Shown: piece by piece, positions 17,252 through 24,291 of the stretch
Position numbering within the stretch: position 1 is the first letter of the stretch
Layout: each line of letters opens with the position of its first letter
DNA from: Pirellula sp.
GTDB lineage: Bacteria; Planctomycetota; Planctomycetia; Pirellulales; Pirellulaceae
Assembly (NCBI GenBank): GCA_021299695.1
Contig: JAJTEK010000038.1
Coordinates: forward strand, 1 to 48,448
Reading direction: 5' to 3'
DNA length: 48,448 nt
Translations under genes and position numbers: made by a program
The notes under the pieces: model-generated
What the model saw: only the letters and a program-made list of their open reading frames with translations
Database searches by the model: none
What the model was told of the DNA's origin: nothing

Positions 17252-20200
17252 TCATGGCCCGGGTTGGTTTTGAGACTCGATCGCTTGGTCTTGGGTCAGT
17301 TCGTTTGTGTTTCTTGTGCCCGAGAGTTGATTCCAGGCTTGTTCCCATTGGGTCCAGGTCGTTTCGCTTGCGGCAAAGATCCAGCGGCGGTCTGGGATAT
17401 CGGCCAGTCCAAGGGTTTTCGCGAGGCTGCTGGGTTGGAAGCTTGAGACGTGCGGACCATCGAAATGAACGTCGCATTTTTGCACGAAGTCTTTATTGGC
17501 CCAGACGACCATTCCTTGGTCTTGCAGGTCGTAGGGTTTCCCTTTGGAGAACTCCGATTCGACTTGAGCGCGTACTAGAAACACTCCGCATTTTCGCATG
17601 AATCCGAGCAGGGCTAGGTCGAAGGTTTTTTGCACGGGTTCGGGAGCTTGATCGAGCCAACCGTTTTGGCGGGTCCAAGCGATAATCCAGCCGCTTTGTT
17701 CTTGGATGACCAGTTCTAGTCGGGAGGCTTGGTGTTCTTGTCCTTTGAGGGAAATCGGTTCGAGACGGATCGTCAGGCTATTGGTCGCAGCGATCACTTC
17801 GGAGCAGACTAGGCCGTACGGATCGTTGCCCGGAGATTGATTGCCTAGGGACTGATTGACTAGGGACTGATTGACTAGGGCGATCAATTCGCGATCGACG
17901 CATCGGTGGACATGATCGGTAACGTGGTGAAGTTTTTTGTAAGCGCTACGTCGTTTGGTAAACCGTTTTACCGAGGCGGGTAGATTTTCGAGTCTGCGAA
18001 TGTTTCGGAAAAGCTTGGGTAACGTTCCGGAGTGGAATCCGGGTCGGAGCAATCGCTCGATGGTCTCACCGTGGCTTCCGACGGGAATCGCAGCGAGGGT
18101 TCCGCGTCGATTTTGCCGGAAGAGCCTCCAGTTCTCCTTGAGCTCCCAGACGGCGAATCCGAAGAATCCCGGGAGAAACACGATGTTAAACCAGGTGATC
18201 GACATGGCAAGAGGTTTGTTCATGTACTGGATCAGGAACGCTTCCATGTTGACGGCTAGGATGAGCAGGACCGGCAGGAAGATTTTGTGGGCGACGGTCA
18301 CGACGGGGAAGTGTTTGACGGGGTGGAGTGTCGGCTCGATGAGCAGATTGATGTAGATTCGAATTAAAAACGAGATCACTGACCAGAAGAAGCCCAGGAT
18401 CGCTTTTGCGATGAGCGATAGGAGGTTCTCTTGGCTGTGGAAACGGAGCCATTCGTCGACGGCATAGAGAAACCGTTCGAATGCGAGCAGCATGCTTCGA
18501 AACAACTCGACGATCCAATCGATGGCGATGACAACCCAGCGCAATCGGACCAGATTCCAGAAACCTCCGATGGCTTCGAAGAGGAGTTCTTGGAGGTCTC
18601 GTCCCAAGCGAGAGTTCATCATTGCACTCAGGACGACCGCCTCGCAAGCGACACGAAGGTTCGGGCTTATTAGGACGCTTGGGGATCTTTGTACCATGCA
18701 TTCGATGGCCAGGACCAACGCCGTTGGCTTGATCCAATAACTCCAAGTGGTTTGAGTCCAGGGGTGTTCGAAGAAGGAGCGGATCGAGGCCCAGGGTAGA
18801 AGTTCTTGAGGCAACCGGATGCAGATCGCATAGATCAATTGCCCGAACCATCGGATGGCTTTCCAAAGTCCCAGTCGGAAGCGGGGCAGGTGGATCAGGG
18901 CCATCAGGAACAGTCCCAGGAGGATGACCAAGGGGATGATGTTCAGTTGGTTCGAGACGATTTGATCGACGGCTTGGTCTGCCGTTTTGGTGACGGTCGA
19001 TTCGGGTTCGGATTGCGATTCGTTAGCAAAGAGACTCGGATCGATTGAATTGGACTTGGGTGGAGGGTGTTCGCTGGTCCAGGATTCAATTTTGTGCCAA
19101 ATGTGTTGGATGCTTTCGATCAGGACCAAAGCGCCGCCGAAGGGAATGATGAGAAATAGGGTGGCGAATCGTCCTTTGGTTGTCCCGAAGAACATGGCGC
19201 TGATCATTTGGATCCATCGAAGGTAGAAATCCCCTTTGCGATAGACGCCGTCGAGGACTTTGTCGAGGCGATCGTCGGCTTTGAGAAGTCGATCGCCGCC
19301 CCAAGCTTCGCGCAGTCCGTGAAGATCGGGGAGTTTTAGATCGTTTTTGCTGACTGCATCCCGGAAATAGCCCATGGAGATATAGCCTCGTTCGGAGATG
19401 CAATCCAGGGCGTCTTCGACGAGCTTGTCCATGGCGATGCGTTCAGGAAATGAACTCGGGGTCATTCCGACTTCGAGGAGGGTATTGCGTAGGGGGTCAC
19501 GGATCCTGAGCCGCATTTGAGAGTCGGCTTGATGTGAGGCTTGTTCAAGTAGCAGGGTCAATCGATCGCGTTCGACTCCGCTTAAGCGCACGTGGGTCAA
19601 TCTGGCCGTTGCGCTGGCGAGGTGCTTGGCCATTAGGACTTCTTGAAGGTTATACAGTGGCCGGCTCAGCGGTTTTGCCCCCAGGGAGGTGATCCATCGC
19701 AAGAGGTCGACGCGGTAGGATATCCGTTCTTTGTCGAGGCAGACTTTTTGAAGGTCGTACAGGAGTCGTTTTTCGGAATTCCAAAAACCTTGGATAGCGT
19801 TTTTGGCTAGTGCTAGCAGAACAGCGTGCCAGTCGTTGTTATCCGAGGCTGGGAAGCCGATCGCTTCCCGCAAGCGTTTGACGAACAGGCGGAGATCCGA
19901 CTCGGCGGTCGACTCGGCCTTGGACCGCTTGCTTCGCGAGGGTGCCGAGCGGGCAGCGCGTAGTGAGGAACTGATCGCATGGACGGTATTGCCCCTTTCG
20001 GTGGCTCGATCTCGCCTGCGCATGTAACGGAGGTATTTCCGCTCCGAGGTGCCTTGTGCAAGTTCGACAGACCATCCTCTTTGGGTGTTCTTTAGGATCA
20101 CTTCGTCTTGTGTCTCGCGGCTTTGCGTTTCGATGGATGCAGAACCTGCGATCCGCGATTGCTCTAACATTTTCTCGATAGGCAGATCCAATCGCATCTT

Positions 20201-20797
20201 CTCGGCCAATTGATCGACATGTTGAATCGAAGGAAACCAGGAATCGAGACTACCTGAATCAAAGCAACGGTATTCCCAATAGAGAGCTACCCATTCGCAA
20301 AAAGCTTCGACACGGCATTTGGGATCGAGCAGTCGCATTTCGGCCCCGAGCACGTGGTGGGCCTCGTCAAATTCCACCTGTCCGAGTGCATCGATTTTGG
20401 ATTGAACGAAGGCGAATTGATCTGGGGATCGCAAGGCAAGCAGAGCGCGATCGAGTTGGGCGTGGAAGAGTCTTCGCCAGAGGAGCAATTTGAGTTCGTC
20501 CAGAGGCCAGTGTTCGAGTTGGTCGGAACTGGGGAGTTTGATCAGCAGGACATCTCCCCAGATCGGTTGCATATCGCGCAGTCCGAGTTCGTCGGGATGG
20601 ACACTGCCGAGAACTTGATCGGCAGGCGCGACATGGGATTCTTCATGAGGCAGCGCCAGTGCCAAACTCGGATGCTGGGTCCGCTTGCGGAGCAGCCTGC
20701 GCATGACCCTACCCTCGACCAAAAAAACGGTCGAATCGTCGGCCGACACCGCTTCCCGCAATTCCCCAACTCGGTTAGCAACGGGTGCTTGAGACAC
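17252..20797 (-). CDS. Large membrane protein of unknown function
   Basis: 1181 residues from a GTG. I do not recognise a family. Residues 1-530 look soluble, basic and helical, with several Arg/Lys-rich stretches (KYLRYMRRRDRATERG; a Ser/Arg/Lys linker near 285). Residues about 540-890 hold around seven hydrophobic segments (FATLFLIIPFGGALVLI, IIPLVILLGLFLMALI, WFNIVFLPGFFGFAVWEL) mixed with amphipathic helices. Residues 890-1181 are again soluble, containing a 5-residue tandem repeat (LVNQS, LVNQS, LGNQS) and a folded-looking end with many Trp residues. There is no signal peptide. It starts a leftward block with pepT. It may be a planctomycete-specific membrane scaffold or a distant GTPase-associated protein, but no Walker motif was found. 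Confidence 0.8.
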   Translation of the reverse strand: MSQAPVANRVGELREAVSADDSTVFLVEGRVMRRLLRKRTQHPSLALALPHEESHVAPADQVLGSVHPDELGLRDMQPIWGDVLLIKLPSSDQLEHWPLDELKLLLWRRLFHAQLDRALLALRSPDQFAFVQSKIDALGQVEFDEAHHVLGAEMRLLDPKCRVEAFCEWVALYWEYRCFDSGSLDSWFPSIQHVDQLAEKMRLDLPIEKMLEQSRIAGSASIETQSRETQDEVILKNTQRGWSVELAQGTSERKYLRYMRRRDRATERGNTVHAISSSLRAARSAPSRSKRSKAESTAESDLRLFVKRLREAIGFPASDNNDWHAVLLALAKNAIQGFWNSEKRLLYDLQKVCLDKERISYRVDLLRWITSLGAKPLSRPLYNLQEVLMAKHLASATARLTHVRLSGVERDRLTLLLEQASHQADSQMRLRIRDPLRNTLLEVGMTPSSFPERIAMDKLVEDALDCISERGYISMGYFRDAVSKNDLKLPDLHGLREAWGGDRLLKADDRLDKVLDGVYRKGDFYLRWIQMISAMFFGTTKGRFATLFLIIPFGGALVLIESIQHIWHKIESWTSEHPPPKSNSIDPSLFANESQSEPESTVTKTADQAVDQIVSNQLNIIPLVILLGLFLMALIHLPRFRLGLWKAIRWFGQLIYAICIRLPQELLPWASIRSFFEHPWTQTTWSYWIKPTALVLAIECMVQRSPSVLISPNLRVACEAVVLSAMMNSRLGRDLQELLFEAIGGFWNLVRLRWVVIAIDWIVELFRSMLLAFERFLYAVDEWLRFHSQENLLSLIAKAILGFFWSVISFLIRIYINLLIEPTLHPVKHFPVVTVAHKIFLPVLLILAVNMEAFLIQYMNKPLAMSITWFNIVFLPGFFGFAVWELKENWRLFRQNRRGTLAAIPVGSHGETIERLLRPGFHSGTLPKLFRNIRRLENLPASVKRFTKRRSAYKKLHHVTDHVHRCVDRELIALVNQSLVNQSLGNQSPGNDPYGLVCSEVIAATNSLTIRLEPISLKGQEHQASRLELVIQEQSGWIIAWTRQNGWLDQAPEPVQKTFDLALLGFMRKCGVFLVRAQVESEFSKGKPYDLQDQGMVVWANKDFVQKCDVHFDGPHVSSFQPSSLAKTLGLADIPDRRWIFAASETTWTQWEQAWNQLSGTRNTNELTQDQAIESQNQPGP
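17836..17880. repeat. 15-bp tandem repeat inside the large membrane-protein gene
   Basis: Two perfect copies of ACTGATTGACTAGGG (17851-17865, 17866-17880) and a third with two mismatches at 17836-17850. On the coding minus strand this gives the peptide repeat LVNQS-LVNQS-LGNQS. The unit is a multiple of three, so copy-number change would keep the frame. Confidence 0.85.
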
Positions 20798-20944: not shown

Positions 20945-21889
20945 ATGGAGAAACGCCGACTTGGAAACTCAGACCTGATGATTACCCCGATAGGGATAGG
21001 GGCCTGGGCTATCGGAGGCGACGGTTGGGCATTTTCCTGGAGCAAGCAGGAGGATTCCCAGAGCATCCTGGCGATCCACGCGGCGCTCGATTCTGGGATC
21101 AATTGGATCGATACGGCCGCAGTGTACGGTTTGGGGCATTCCGAGAGTGTTGTGGCCAAGGCACTGAAGCAAACGTCAGCCCAACGGCCTTATGTTTTCA
21201 CTAAATGCGAGCGGGCTTGGGACGAGAATCGCCAGATCGTCAAATCCTTGAAGGCCGAGTCGATCCGCAAGGAGTGTGAGGATAGTCTGCGTCGGCTTGA
21301 AGTCGAAACGATCGATCTTTATCAAATTCACTGGCCTGAGCCCGACGAAGACATCGAGGAGGGTTGGAGCACTTTGGCTGATCTTCAGCGGGAAGGAAAG
21401 GTACGATGGATTGGAGTTTCGAATTTCGATGCGAACCAAATGCGGCGAATCGCATCGATCGCGTCGATCACTTCGCTGCAGCCCCCCTATTCTCTGATCC
21501 GACGCGATGCGGAAAAGGAGATCCTACCCTATGCCCACTCGCACCAAATAGGCGTGATCGCTTATTCTCCTATGGGATCAGGCATGCTCACTGGCGCGAT
21601 GAGTCGCCAACGCATCGAGTCGCTTCCACCTGACGATTGGCGCACCCGCAGTGCGAATTTCCAAGAGCCCCTGCTGACAAAAAATCTAGCCATCGCCGAA
21701 AAACTCGAGCAGACGGCCACTCAAGCAGGTCTCTCCCCAGGGCATCTTGCTATCGCTTGGGTGCTCCAAAATCCTGCCGTTACCGGCGCCATAGTGGGGA
21801 TTCGAAGTGTGGAGCAAGCCCTAGAACTGGCTCGATTCGCGGATGTCTATCCATCGAAGACTGCAAGTATTCTCGGTGCATTGGAGTAA
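20945..21889 (+). CDS. Aldo/keto reductase
   Basis: 314 residues, a full (beta/alpha)8 aldo/keto reductase. The catalytic tetrad is visible: Asp and Tyr in WIDTAAVYGLGHSE, Lys in VFTKCE and His in LYQIHWPEP. The C-terminal NADPH-binding part has GIRSVEQA after AIVG, and the SNF motif (GVSNFDANQM) is present. It reduces carbonyl compounds with NADPH in the cytoplasm; the substrate cannot be told. An AAGGG stands before the ATG at a slightly long distance. It is the first gene of a rightward trio: the HD gene starts 4 bases after its stop, suggesting translational coupling. Confidence 0.94.
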   Translation: MEKRRLGNSDLMITPIGIGAWAIGGDGWAFSWSKQEDSQSILAIHAALDSGINWIDTAAVYGLGHSESVVAKALKQTSAQRPYVFTKCERAWDENRQIVKSLKAESIRKECEDSLRRLEVETIDLYQIHWPEPDEDIEEGWSTLADLQREGKVRWIGVSNFDANQMRRIASIASITSLQPPYSLIRRDAEKEILPYAHSHQIGVIAYSPMGSGMLTGAMSRQRIESLPPDDWRTRSANFQEPLLTKNLAIAEKLEQTATQAGLSPGHLAIAWVLQNPAVTGAIVGIRSVEQALELARFADVYPSKTASILGALE

Positions 21890-21893
21890 TCGC

Positions 21894-22673
21894 GTGAATT
21901 CCGTGAATCCAGAAGGCATCGAGCCTCGCAGAGATTTGGTTCAAAAGATAGAGGCTTGGGATGGCCGATGGGGGCGTTTGGTTCTCGAGCGTTTGCGAGT
22001 TCAGATGGCCGACGCGGACCCGGCGCATGGGCTTGAACATGTCCAGCGTGTCGTAAGAAACGCCTGTCTGATCGCAACGAACTTGGTCAACTCCCCGGGG
22101 CTCGGTGGTGCTCGAAGGGTGGATTTCGAGGTCCTCTTGCCGGCTGCTTGGTTTCACGACTGTGTTTATGTGCCTAAGAATTCCGCTCAACGCTCCGAGG
22201 CATCGCGACTCGCAGCGGACCGAGCCGTCGTGCTGCTCACGGATCTTGGCTATCCGGCGGTGAAATTCCCGGCGATTGCCCATGCGATCGAAGCGCATAG
22301 TTTTTCGGCTCAGATCCCTTGCCGGAGCCTTGAGGCACAAGTGCTCCAGGACGCCGACCGTCTGGAGGCCCTCGGAGCCATTGGGCTGGCTCGATGCTTG
22401 ATGACCGGCGGCTCGATGGGACAGAGGTTATACCATCCTGAGGATCCGTTCCCCACGGTAAGGGAGCCTCGGGATGATCAGCAATCGGTTGATCATTTCT
22501 TTGCGAAATTGCTTAAGCTCCCGTCGACCATGCAGACCGAATCCGGCAAGCAGATCGCCTCAGAGCGTGCTGGATATCTCGCGGCGTTTCTTGAGCAACT
22601 AGCGCAGGAAATCGGAGTGCCAATCCAACTGCCGTCGGAGTTCCGAGGTTTACAAAGCGGCTCTGTTGGCTGA
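21894..22673 (+). CDS. HD-domain phosphohydrolase (YedJ-like)
   Basis: 259 residues from the GTG at 21894, chosen because it follows the reductase stop directly; an in-frame ATG at 21843 would overlap that gene. HD-family metal ligands are seen in AHGLEHVQRVVRNA, AAWFHDCVY, HAIEAHSFSAQIP and VLQDADRLEALGAIGLAR. The last two blocks are characteristic of the YedJ subgroup of metal-dependent phosphohydrolases, probably acting on nucleotides or other phosphoesters. The C-terminal helix bundle (about 200-250) also matches that family. It sits 52 bases before the H-NOX kinase gene, so all three may be one transcript. Confidence 0.88.
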   Translation: MNSVNPEGIEPRRDLVQKIEAWDGRWGRLVLERLRVQMADADPAHGLEHVQRVVRNACLIATNLVNSPGLGGARRVDFEVLLPAAWFHDCVYVPKNSAQRSEASRLAADRAVVLLTDLGYPAVKFPAIAHAIEAHSFSAQIPCRSLEAQVLQDADRLEALGAIGLARCLMTGGSMGQRLYHPEDPFPTVREPRDDQQSVDHFFAKLLKLPSTMQTESGKQIASERAGYLAAFLEQLAQEIGVPIQLPSEFRGLQSGSVG

Positions 22674-22725: not shown

Positions 22726-24291
22726 ATGCATGGATTGATACTTGTACAGCTTCAAAAATTCGCCCAGCAGACGCTCGGACCCGAGGAGTGGCGCAGGGCG
22801 TTGTCGAAGTCCGGTTTAGACCGGACCACGTTTTCAGCCGGTTTGGTTTACGAGGATCGGCAAGCTCTGGAGTTGATTGTTCTGGCTGCTGAGACCCTGA
22901 ATGTCCCGGTCGACGAAGTGGTCGAGATGTTTGGTAGGTTTATATCGACCGAATTGCTCAGGCTCTACCATCGGGTAATCAAGCCGCAGTGGCGAACACT
23001 GGACATCATCGAAAACACCGAGACTTTCATTCACTCGGCAGTTCGCGTTGGCAATCCTGGTGCGGTTCCACCGGTCCTCGATGCGATTCGCCTTTCGGAG
23101 AACGAATTGCAGTTGCTCTATTCGTCGGATCGAAAACTGTGCAAGTTGGCTATCGGCATCATTAAAGGCTTGGCCGACCACTTTCATGAGGTAATCGAAA
23201 TTTACAAAGATTCCTGCATGCTCCATGGGGACCCGTTTTGTACATTTCGATTGGTAAGAAATCTTGCCAAACAAGACACCAAAAAACTGGATGTGAGAAA
23301 CACCATTCAATTTGGCCTAGACTCCCCATTGACCGTCCAGGGCGATCCATCGTCTTGGGAGGGTGGGACCAATAAGACTCTAGCGGACAAGACGCTAGCA
23401 GAGCGTTCCAAAGGGGAGCCCACTCGTTGGGATAGCTATCTGTCACCTGCGATTATCGAGTCGGATTTCGCTAGTATCGGTCCTTACAGGGTCCTAGGCC
23501 AGCATGGTGAAGGGGGAATGGGTTGCGTCTTTCGAGCCATCGATACACGGAACGAACAGACAGTAGCGATCAAGGTATTGCATCCGAAGGTTTCCAAGGA
23601 AGCCACATCCAAAAAGCGTTTTTTGCGAGAACTCCTGGCCTTACAGCAAATCCGGAGTCCACATGTGGTCGAGGTTCGCGACGTCGGCGAAGTCGGTCAA
23701 CTGCCTTATTTGGTCATGGAGTTTTTGCGAGGTACCAATCTTCAGATGTACCGGGAGCGTTTCCAGAGCTTGCCGGCTCATGAGATTCTCCGTATCGCGA
23801 TCGAGACGGTCGATGGACTATCGGCCGTGCATCGATGCGGGCTGATCCATCGCGACATCAAGCCTGAGAATCTTTGGGTCGAATCGTCGACGCTCAACGT
23901 GAAGATCATCGATTTTGGATTGGCTCATGCGGTATCCGACGAGATGCGACTAACTCGCACCGGTACCTTCATTGGAACCCCATCGTTCATGGCTCCCGAG
24001 CAGGCCAGCGGCGGGAGTATTGATCCTCGGGCTGACTTTTTTAGTTTAGGTTGTGTGCTCTACGATCTGTCGACCGGACAACGGCCGTTTGATCGTCCGA
24101 ACATCTTGAGCACTTTGTCGGCTTTGGCGAACCATACCCCAGAGAATCCTCATGTCCTTTGGCCGGATTGCCCAGTTGGATTTTCAGAGTTGATCATGCA
24201 GATGCTTGAAAAAGCCCCTGAAAATCGACCACAAGACTGCCAGGAAATCTCAGAAAAACTCAAGCAGATTATGGACCGTCTTTCCACATAA
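22726..24291 (+). CDS. H-NOX (heme-NO-binding) domain fused to Ser/Thr protein kinase
   Basis: 521 residues from the ATG at 22726, which gives the canonical H-NOX beginning MHGLILVQLQKF; an earlier in-frame start adds 20 residues with no family match. Residues 1-178 are an H-NOX domain: predicted proximal heme ligand H103, conserved P116, and the heme-propionate motif Y132-x-S134-x-R136, each one residue later than in the Thermoanaerobacter H-NOX (H102, P115, Y131/S133/R135). The position matching its oxygen-binding distal Tyr140 is Leu141, which predicts NO over O2 selectivity. A Gly/Thr/Lys-rich linker (about 195-245) leads to a complete Hanks-type kinase: Gly loop GEGGMG (261-266), K283 in VAIK, HRDIKPEN with D377, DFG at 396-398 and APE at 423-425. 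No membrane segment follows the kinase. The likely role is a soluble gas-sensing kinase; the fusion is seen directly, the signal inferred. Confidence 0.93.
   Translation: MHGLILVQLQKFAQQTLGPEEWRRALSKSGLDRTTFSAGLVYEDRQALELIVLAAETLNVPVDEVVEMFGRFISTELLRLYHRVIKPQWRTLDIIENTETFIHSAVRVGNPGAVPPVLDAIRLSENELQLLYSSDRKLCKLAIGIIKGLADHFHEVIEIYKDSCMLHGDPFCTFRLVRNLAKQDTKKLDVRNTIQFGLDSPLTVQGDPSSWEGGTNKTLADKTLAERSKGEPTRWDSYLSPAIIESDFASIGPYRVLGQHGEGGMGCVFRAIDTRNEQTVAIKVLHPKVSKEATSKKRFLRELLALQQIRSPHVVEVRDVGEVGQLPYLVMEFLRGTNLQMYRERFQSLPAHEILRIAIETVDGLSAVHRCGLIHRDIKPENLWVESSTLNVKIIDFGLAHAVSDEMRLTRTGTFIGTPSFMAPEQASGGSIDPRADFFSLGCVLYDLSTGQRPFDRPNILSTLSALANHTPENPHVLWPDCPVGFSELIMQMLEKAPENRPQDCQEISEKLKQIMDRLST

Follow-up and report, generated by a model that had tools for sequence, protein, structure and literature searches.

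The window, i.e. the whole analysed stretch of 48,448 nucleotides, from a genome of 5.5 Mb in 229 contigs, contains on its forward strand a gene of 521 codons plus stop (22726-24291, by translation of the frame), in which an N-terminal H-NOX domain, a sensor type by which animals detect nitric oxide, is joined to a Hanks-type Ser/Thr kinase (Table 1). An earlier note, made from the sequence alone, had described this single frame as holding a complete H-NOX domain and a complete kinase, and both were recovered with Pfam: HNOB on residues 2-159 (103.7 bits, E 1.2e-29; profile positions 1-161 of 163; cut-off 25.5 bits) and Pkinase on residues 254-507 (173.1 bits, E 9.4e-51; cut-off 31.7 bits). 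The residues named there (H103, P116, Y132, S134, R136, L141, K283, D377 and D396) were all found as stated. The same frame is open from a TTG at 22666, which would give a version of 541 aa; as a stop lies five codons ahead of the homologous Met in the ortholog L005 and conservation among orthologs starts at MHGLI, ATG 22726 is the likely start of the gene. Pfam detected no domain between HNOB and Pkinase and no class III cyclase domain in the protein, Pkinase standing in its place, and no NCBIfam model scored above its own cut-off. A weak V4R match below the Pfam cut-off covers residues 127-177, and hydropathy gives no evident membrane segment (19-residue Kyte-Doolittle mean at most 1.29).

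Table 1. Features of the fusion locus in the window; counts in fused frames cover related sequences, not independent events.
Feature	Position	Strand	Basis
HD-domain phosphohydrolase gene, directly upstream of the fusion	21843..22673	+	Pfam HD, E 1e-7
H-NOX/Ser-Thr kinase fusion gene, 521 residues	22726..24291	+	open frame, HNOB and Pkinase, full-length orthologs 39-92% identical
H-NOX domain, residues 1-176, with V4R-like C-terminal end	22726..23253	+	Pfam and solved-chain profile match
His103, predicted proximal heme ligand	23032..23034	+	invariant in alignment of nine fusions; His in 73/75 fused frames
Y132-x-S134-x-R136, predicted heme-propionate motif	23119..23133	+	each residue in 73/75 fused frames
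Cys139, first of triad, predicted zinc/redox site	23140..23142	+	matches a zinc-site Cys of S. oneidensis H-NOX in alignments
Cys164, second of triad, predicted zinc/redox site	23215..23217	+	family alignment and solved-chain alignment
Cys172, third of triad, predicted zinc/redox site	23239..23241	+	family alignment and solved-chain alignment
Linker, residues 177-248, fast-evolving, two conserved Thr (T185, T193)	23254..23469	+	
Hanks-type Ser/Thr kinase domain, residues 249-515	23470..24270	+	Pfam Pkinase; closest solved chains PknE/PknB
Lys283, ATP-binding Lys, pairs with Glu302	23572..23574	+	K and E each in 75/75 fused frames
Asp377 of HRDIKPEN, catalytic base, RD-type kinase	23854..23856	+	D in 71/75 fused frames
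Asp396 of DFG, Mg binding	23911..23913	+	D in 69/75 fused frames

The fusion is confirmed as a genuine gene, and chance is excluded by the E-values, by full-length orthologs elsewhere and by dN/dS ratios of about 0.05-0.18 in both domains. In a simple Nei-Gojobori count on close orthologs, restricted to pairs with computable dS, the H-NOX domain gave a dN/dS of 0.05-0.12, the kinase 0.05-0.18 and the linker 0.12-0.30; the low ratios point to maintenance of both H-NOX and kinase. An alignment of nine full-length fusions showed H103, P116, Y132, S134 and R136 to be invariant, and so are C139, C164, C172, K283, D377 and D396. Many genomes, the closest named relatives included, are metagenome assemblies, and one might think of an artefact of assembly or annotation which joined two genes; yet dozens of separate assemblies share the fusion, its frame unbroken and its dN/dS low, which leaves this reading a vanishingly small probability, and an artefact or a pseudogene was regarded as ruled out by the orthologs and the low dN/dS.

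In the genus 14 of 27 genomes had an HNOB match; of the genomes sampled more widely, 42 of 392 did so in the phylum and 93 of 396 in the order, 92 of these 93 being above cut-off. A search for the combined HNOB and Pkinase architecture, which the earlier note had proposed as a measure of spread, was carried out by scanning all HNOB loci, save two short pieces of one contig (C5 of G401), with custom profiles for a kinase encoded in one open frame with the H-NOX. A kinase was fused in 94 of 184 H-NOX frames with duplicates, and in 75 of 164 after repeats were removed. Within the order, fusions were carried by 63 of the 396 genomes, namely 43 of family f8, 17 of f1 (the window's family) and three of f3, and within the genus by 10 of the 27, the copy of G011 being spread over two contig ends. 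The remaining two H-NOX-positive genomes of f8 display H-NOX and kinase in two overlapping frames (G530) and a gene cut by a contig end after the H-NOX (G681). Beyond the order, three fused genes were found in G085 and a degenerate one in G148. A singleton was ruled out by this survey. H-NOX also occurs in 17 plasmid records, where the annotations under the matches, considered for the matches alone and with one record lacking annotation, name no kinase.

With a profile of nine orthologous N-terminal domains, the best solved chains were 2kii (which we take to be S. oneidensis H-NOX), 4u9b and 4u99 (E 6e-26 to 3e-25), in all of which residues 1-175 of the fusion were aligned on residues 1-175; next came 6ocv, Alr2278 and sGC beta-1. 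The chain 4U99 is S. oneidensis H-NOX (PMC12329717). The heme motif proved common to the family, H103 and YxSxR being kept in 73 of 75 distinct fused frames, a count of related sequences rather than of independent events, and the fusion's H-NOX is predicted to bind heme. Position 141, from which alone the distal Tyr was judged, is Leu in the fusion and in 70 of the 75 frames and never Tyr, as the earlier note had proposed for the window's copy; a non-polar residue at this place suggests a heme pocket suited to NO. An O2 sensor with distal Tyr is disfavoured, no Tyr having been met at 141 in the 75 frames.

Pro116 is located 13 residues past the proximal His103, and across the 75 frames this position is occupied by Pro in 63 and by Ala in 10. 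The proximal Pro is replaced by Ala116 in ten f1 fusions (L115, L117, L118, L119, L122, L123, L124, L125, L127 and L136). The P115A mutant of Thermoanaerobacter H-NOX is said to suggest a flatter heme.

The solved kinases closest to the C-terminal domain are PknE (E 4e-44) and PknB (E 2e-42). Gly-rich loop, VAIK Lys, C-helix Glu, HRD and DFG are all present, so that the kinase is apparently catalytically intact, and K283, D377 and D396, on which the claim of a complete kinase had been based, are kept in every frame that reaches them. The four frames without Asp377 stop short of it, L137 and L150 at contig ends and L149 and L158 early inside a contig; as to Asp396, five frames end before the residue and one has an unreadable codon. 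Membership in the PknB/Stk1 PASTA kinases (NF033483) was excluded by a score of 253.7 against 450 bits, with only profile positions 9-270 of 563 covered. With the fusion as a query, each of 40 genomes gave between 18 and 42 matches, most of those listed falling in its kinase part. Close kinases without H-NOX (L183, L184, L189-L192, L194, L196 and L198-L200) carry, N-terminal to the kinase where the fusion has its H-NOX, a short HxxxCxxC segment that by eye resembles an anti-sigma-like zinc finger.

The interpretation given in the earlier note stood with regard to the fusion, the heme motif, the intact kinase and the non-Tyr distal residue, but it had overlooked a cysteine triad, C139/C164/C172. 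Ungapped alignments to solved H-NOX put all three on Cys residues, and the zinc ligands of S. oneidensis H-NOX are Cys139, Cys164 and Cys172, the same numbers as in the fusion (PMC7108781). Judged from these alignments, the site, which lies near the C-terminal end of the H-NOX and beside the linker, probably binds zinc and may be open to oxidation. The fourth zinc ligand, His160/161 in characterised proteins, corresponds to Tyr160/Lys161 in the fusion, which lacks the His or Gln expected at about 160/161 in the zinc-cysteine H-NOX of groups 2 and 3 (PMC7108781). His160 is found in five close orthologs, and Glu161 is commonest across the family (53 of 75 fused frames). In the H-NOX of V. cholerae, oxidation of the zinc/Cys site lets the heme-free protein inhibit its histidine kinase (PMC7108781), and in that of Caulobacter, where such a site is also present, the kinase is left unaffected by the Fe(II)-NO form but responds to oxidation of Cys (PMC12329717). 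Since the Cys site senses oxidants in these related proteins, the signal of the fusion may not be NO alone, and the statement that heme NO binding changes kinase activity becomes one of two live options, because the kinase of Caulobacter H-NOX answers Cys oxidation and not Fe(II)-NO.

On the residues described above it appears fairly probable that the fusion is a soluble one-component sensor kinase, in which H-NOX input by heme-NO and thiol oxidation alters the attached Ser/Thr kinase. The N-terminal H-NOX would take up the signal and change its shape; when activated, H-NOX domains shift at two glycine hinges and thereby govern their partner (PMC8738867, PMC7108781), and the partner would in this case be the attached kinase. 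The shape change would be passed on by the C-terminal end of the H-NOX, where two of the three cysteines are located, and by the flexible linker, and would alter kinase activity or trans-autophosphorylation and, with it, the phosphorylation of cell proteins. Two inputs would be united in one sensor, a heme pocket tuned to NO and an oxidisable three-cysteine site. Concerning the natural signal, NO, thiol oxidation and a combination of the two seem to us about equally likely. A stricter form, a two-input switch common to the family whose kinase would act on its targets only when nitrosative and oxidative conditions coincide, with autophosphorylated Thr of the linker as docking sites, is speculative and seems rather unlikely.

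The distribution of the triad bears on a kinase ruled by thiol redox, in which oxidation of zinc-bound Cys would be the signal, the heme structural or secondary and NO of little effect. The three cysteines occur together in 73 of 75 fused frames versus 12 of 89 H-NOX frames without kinase, and three of these 12 (L132, L141 and L172) are cut or split fusions; Caulobacter H-NOX acts in just this manner (PMC12329717). A further parallel is the V4R domain of MsvR, in which a Cys triad of similar spacing (206/232/240) is part of the redox response (PMC3729527), V4R and HNOB having been described as similar (PMC5847659), though on this region of a fused relative the NCBIfam MsvR profile reached only 21 bits, far short of its cut-off of 220. 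In view of a fourth zinc ligand that the window's copy does not keep, and of a His103 and YxSxR conserved as much as the cysteines (73 of 75 each), which would be odd if the heme were irrelevant, we consider such a kinase possible but less than even in likelihood.

The converse, that NO alone breaks the Fe-His103 bond and changes kinase activity while the zinc site is structural, agrees with the conserved heme motif and Leu141 and with the behaviour of sGC and several H-NOX/histidine kinase pairs (PMC8738867). A structural role of zinc is plausible, because in Vibrio H-NOX the alanine substitutions attempted around the zinc site mostly yielded insoluble protein (PMC7108781). Against this, the bias of the triad, which is absent from 77 of the 89 kinase-less frames, is left unexplained, and of the nine neighbours in the window scanned with Pfam none is recognisable as an NO gene; the reading is doubtful in our opinion.

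Hanks-type kinases are often activated by dimerisation, and the H-NOX could be mainly a dimerisation or docking module that joins kinases or recruits substrates, its ligand binding being vestigial. Two exceptions among the 75 fused frames, L070 and L177, would fit such a module, for they are without heme and Cys sites and still match a kinase; but L070 sits on a very long branch, L177 covers part of the H-NOX profile only, and the other 73 keep both sites, so that we regard this as improbable.

The exceptions deserve a description of their own. L070:1496-3499 (G148) encodes an H-NOX/kinase/TPR protein in which heme His, YxSxR and Cys triad are missing, and is a candidate for a ligand-independent descendant. 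In G527, L141 represents one fusion in several frames and L177 a partial H-NOX match plus kinase; the same genome also possesses an intact stand-alone H-NOX (L091).

The linker comprises about 70 residues in the fusion, and across the family a median of 51 residues lies between the profile matches (range 34-285). In four relatives set against the window's copy its dN was 0.06-0.66 versus 0.02-0.11 in the H-NOX. Despite this fast evolution T185 and T193 are invariant in the alignment of nine full-length fusions. Two Thr preceded by an acidic residue or Asn and 5-10 residues apart were counted in 52 of 75 linkers as compared with 3.1 expected from shuffles, a pattern which was picked after the linkers had been viewed and a count which is inflated by kinship. 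These Thr may cautiously be taken as candidate sites of autophosphorylation or phosphothreonine docking. The longest linker, of 285 residues and rich in 'DASGRYRAP'-like repeats, belongs to an 874-residue fusion of G085 with an extra N-terminal stretch (L067:2554-5175); L068 and L069 are the other two fusions of this genome.

Several known systems resemble the fusion in part. HnoX-HnoK of Shewanella oneidensis, Vibrio cholerae and Caulobacter shares with it the H-NOX, His103, YxSxR, the three-cysteine site and the control of a kinase by the sensor, but consists of two proteins with a histidine kinase, whereas the fusion is one protein with a Ser/Thr kinase and without the fourth-ligand His. 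sGC beta-1 is likewise a soluble protein whose N-terminal H-NOX is linked to an enzyme at the C-terminus; the output of the fusion is, in contrast, a kinase and not a cyclase, no Pfam domain intervenes, and a cysteine triad is present. PknB- and PknE-like kinases have the kinase domain and catalytic residues in common with the fusion, which, unlike them, shows neither PASTA match nor evident membrane segment and bears the H-NOX at its N-terminus as a sensor. The O2-type H-NOX/methyl-accepting chemotaxis proteins also tie H-NOX covalently to an output, although they are membrane chemoreceptors with a distal Tyr (PMC8738867) in place of a kinase and Leu141. HNOB-GGDEF proteins, in which an H-NOX-type sensor is linked to, or associates with, an enzyme (PMC8846402), serve cyclic-di-GMP synthesis instead of protein phosphorylation, and MsvR, despite three similarly spaced Cys in its V4R domain, is a DNA-binding regulator of archaea (methanogens).

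The view that characterised NO-binding H-NOX signal through separate histidine kinases agrees with a 2022 review, which for facultatively anaerobic bacteria adds cyclic-di-GMP enzymes and states that a high-resolution structure of an H-NOX together with its partner does not exist (PMC8738867). Both domains of the fusion are well known, and what is new is the variant, i.e. their joining. No description of an H-NOX/Ser-Thr kinase fusion appeared among the literature matches listed, a corpus with most subscription journals outside its scope; 'H-NOX' and 'Planctomycet' never stood together in any paper of the literature searched, and a word search in PMC2877116 and PMC6213207 yielded no mention of heme, nitric oxide, H-NOX or HNOB. 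As a covalent H-NOX/kinase of 521 residues, the protein would make the step from H-NOX to kinase solvable and assayable in a single polypeptide, and as heme and Cys sites are both conserved, the question of NO, oxidant or both as the signal of zinc-type H-NOX could be approached with a built-in readout. If the sensor kinase holds true, one of the many Ser/Thr kinases in planctomycetes would receive a named signal, and the two-input switch, if true, would be a prokaryotic one-protein counterpart of sGC, with a phosphoprotein replacing cGMP.

With respect to the origin of the fusion, one old event is the simplest reading, which the trees allow but do not prove. In the H-NOX tree of 109 domains, from which 10 rows less than 75% filled and rows more than 80% identical to a kept row had been left out, 41 fused and five other rows fall into a single cluster (SH-aLRT 94, slightly short of the mark of 95). 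Three of these five are cut or split fusions, and L053 and L076 are stand-alone H-NOX that group with the G085 fusions. The fused label needs five changes on this tree, four of them forced by starred branches. For the kinases, compared with a biased set of controls (matches to the window's protein or kinases from fetched loci), one clade was not rejected when L172 and L070 were omitted (p 0.18, 39 rows; p 0.507 with 36 rows, without G085), but was rejected when the split fusion L172 stood among the controls (p 1.9e-44). In another family, L071 (G117) and L079 (G097) present an H-NOX frame followed on the same strand by an overlapping Ser/Thr kinase frame, and these neighbouring overlapping genes point to a functional coupling of H-NOX and kinase. 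By eye, both H-NOX have YxSxN for YxSxR; L071 possesses the full triad, and L079 is without Cys164 and Cys172.

The HD gene directly upstream is possibly co-transcribed with the fusion, judging from its position. Homologs precede the fusion in L054, L055, L056, L057 and L059, and the comparison that revealed these gave none in L058, L060, L061 and L064-L066 (L060, L061 and L066 being further named fusion loci). In the closest relatives the upstream genes include the HD gene and one for an aldo/keto reductase; homologs of the latter are situated on the opposite strand near the f8 fusions L158 and L163, and a Pfam scan of the f8 loci L138 and L165 showed the flanks to be a gene without match and a histidyl-tRNA synthetase on the other strand. 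A conserved operon partner was rejected, as a comparison that includes shadow frames turned up no neighbour shared by the whole family. No histidine kinase was detected among the nine other window proteins scanned, the output of the fusion sitting in its own frame. Some match to flavohemoglobin (Hmp) was obtained in 18 of the 27 genus genomes, mostly partial (from residue 145 or later); full-length matches were confined to three (G006, G016 and G040), none with any H-NOX match. NnrS matched in 0 of 27, in a search whose control was silent too.

Two further genes near fusions were observed. In f8, L147:3187-4383 (-) and its homologs, with a lipoprotein-like start, are located directly upstream of the fusion and co-oriented with it; the cluster to which the L147 gene belongs takes in 37 f8 loci, and the gene at the homologous place in L138 is without Pfam or NCBIfam match. 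In the window itself, a frame of 1181 residues without Pfam match (17252-20797, minus strand) is conserved in four near relatives.
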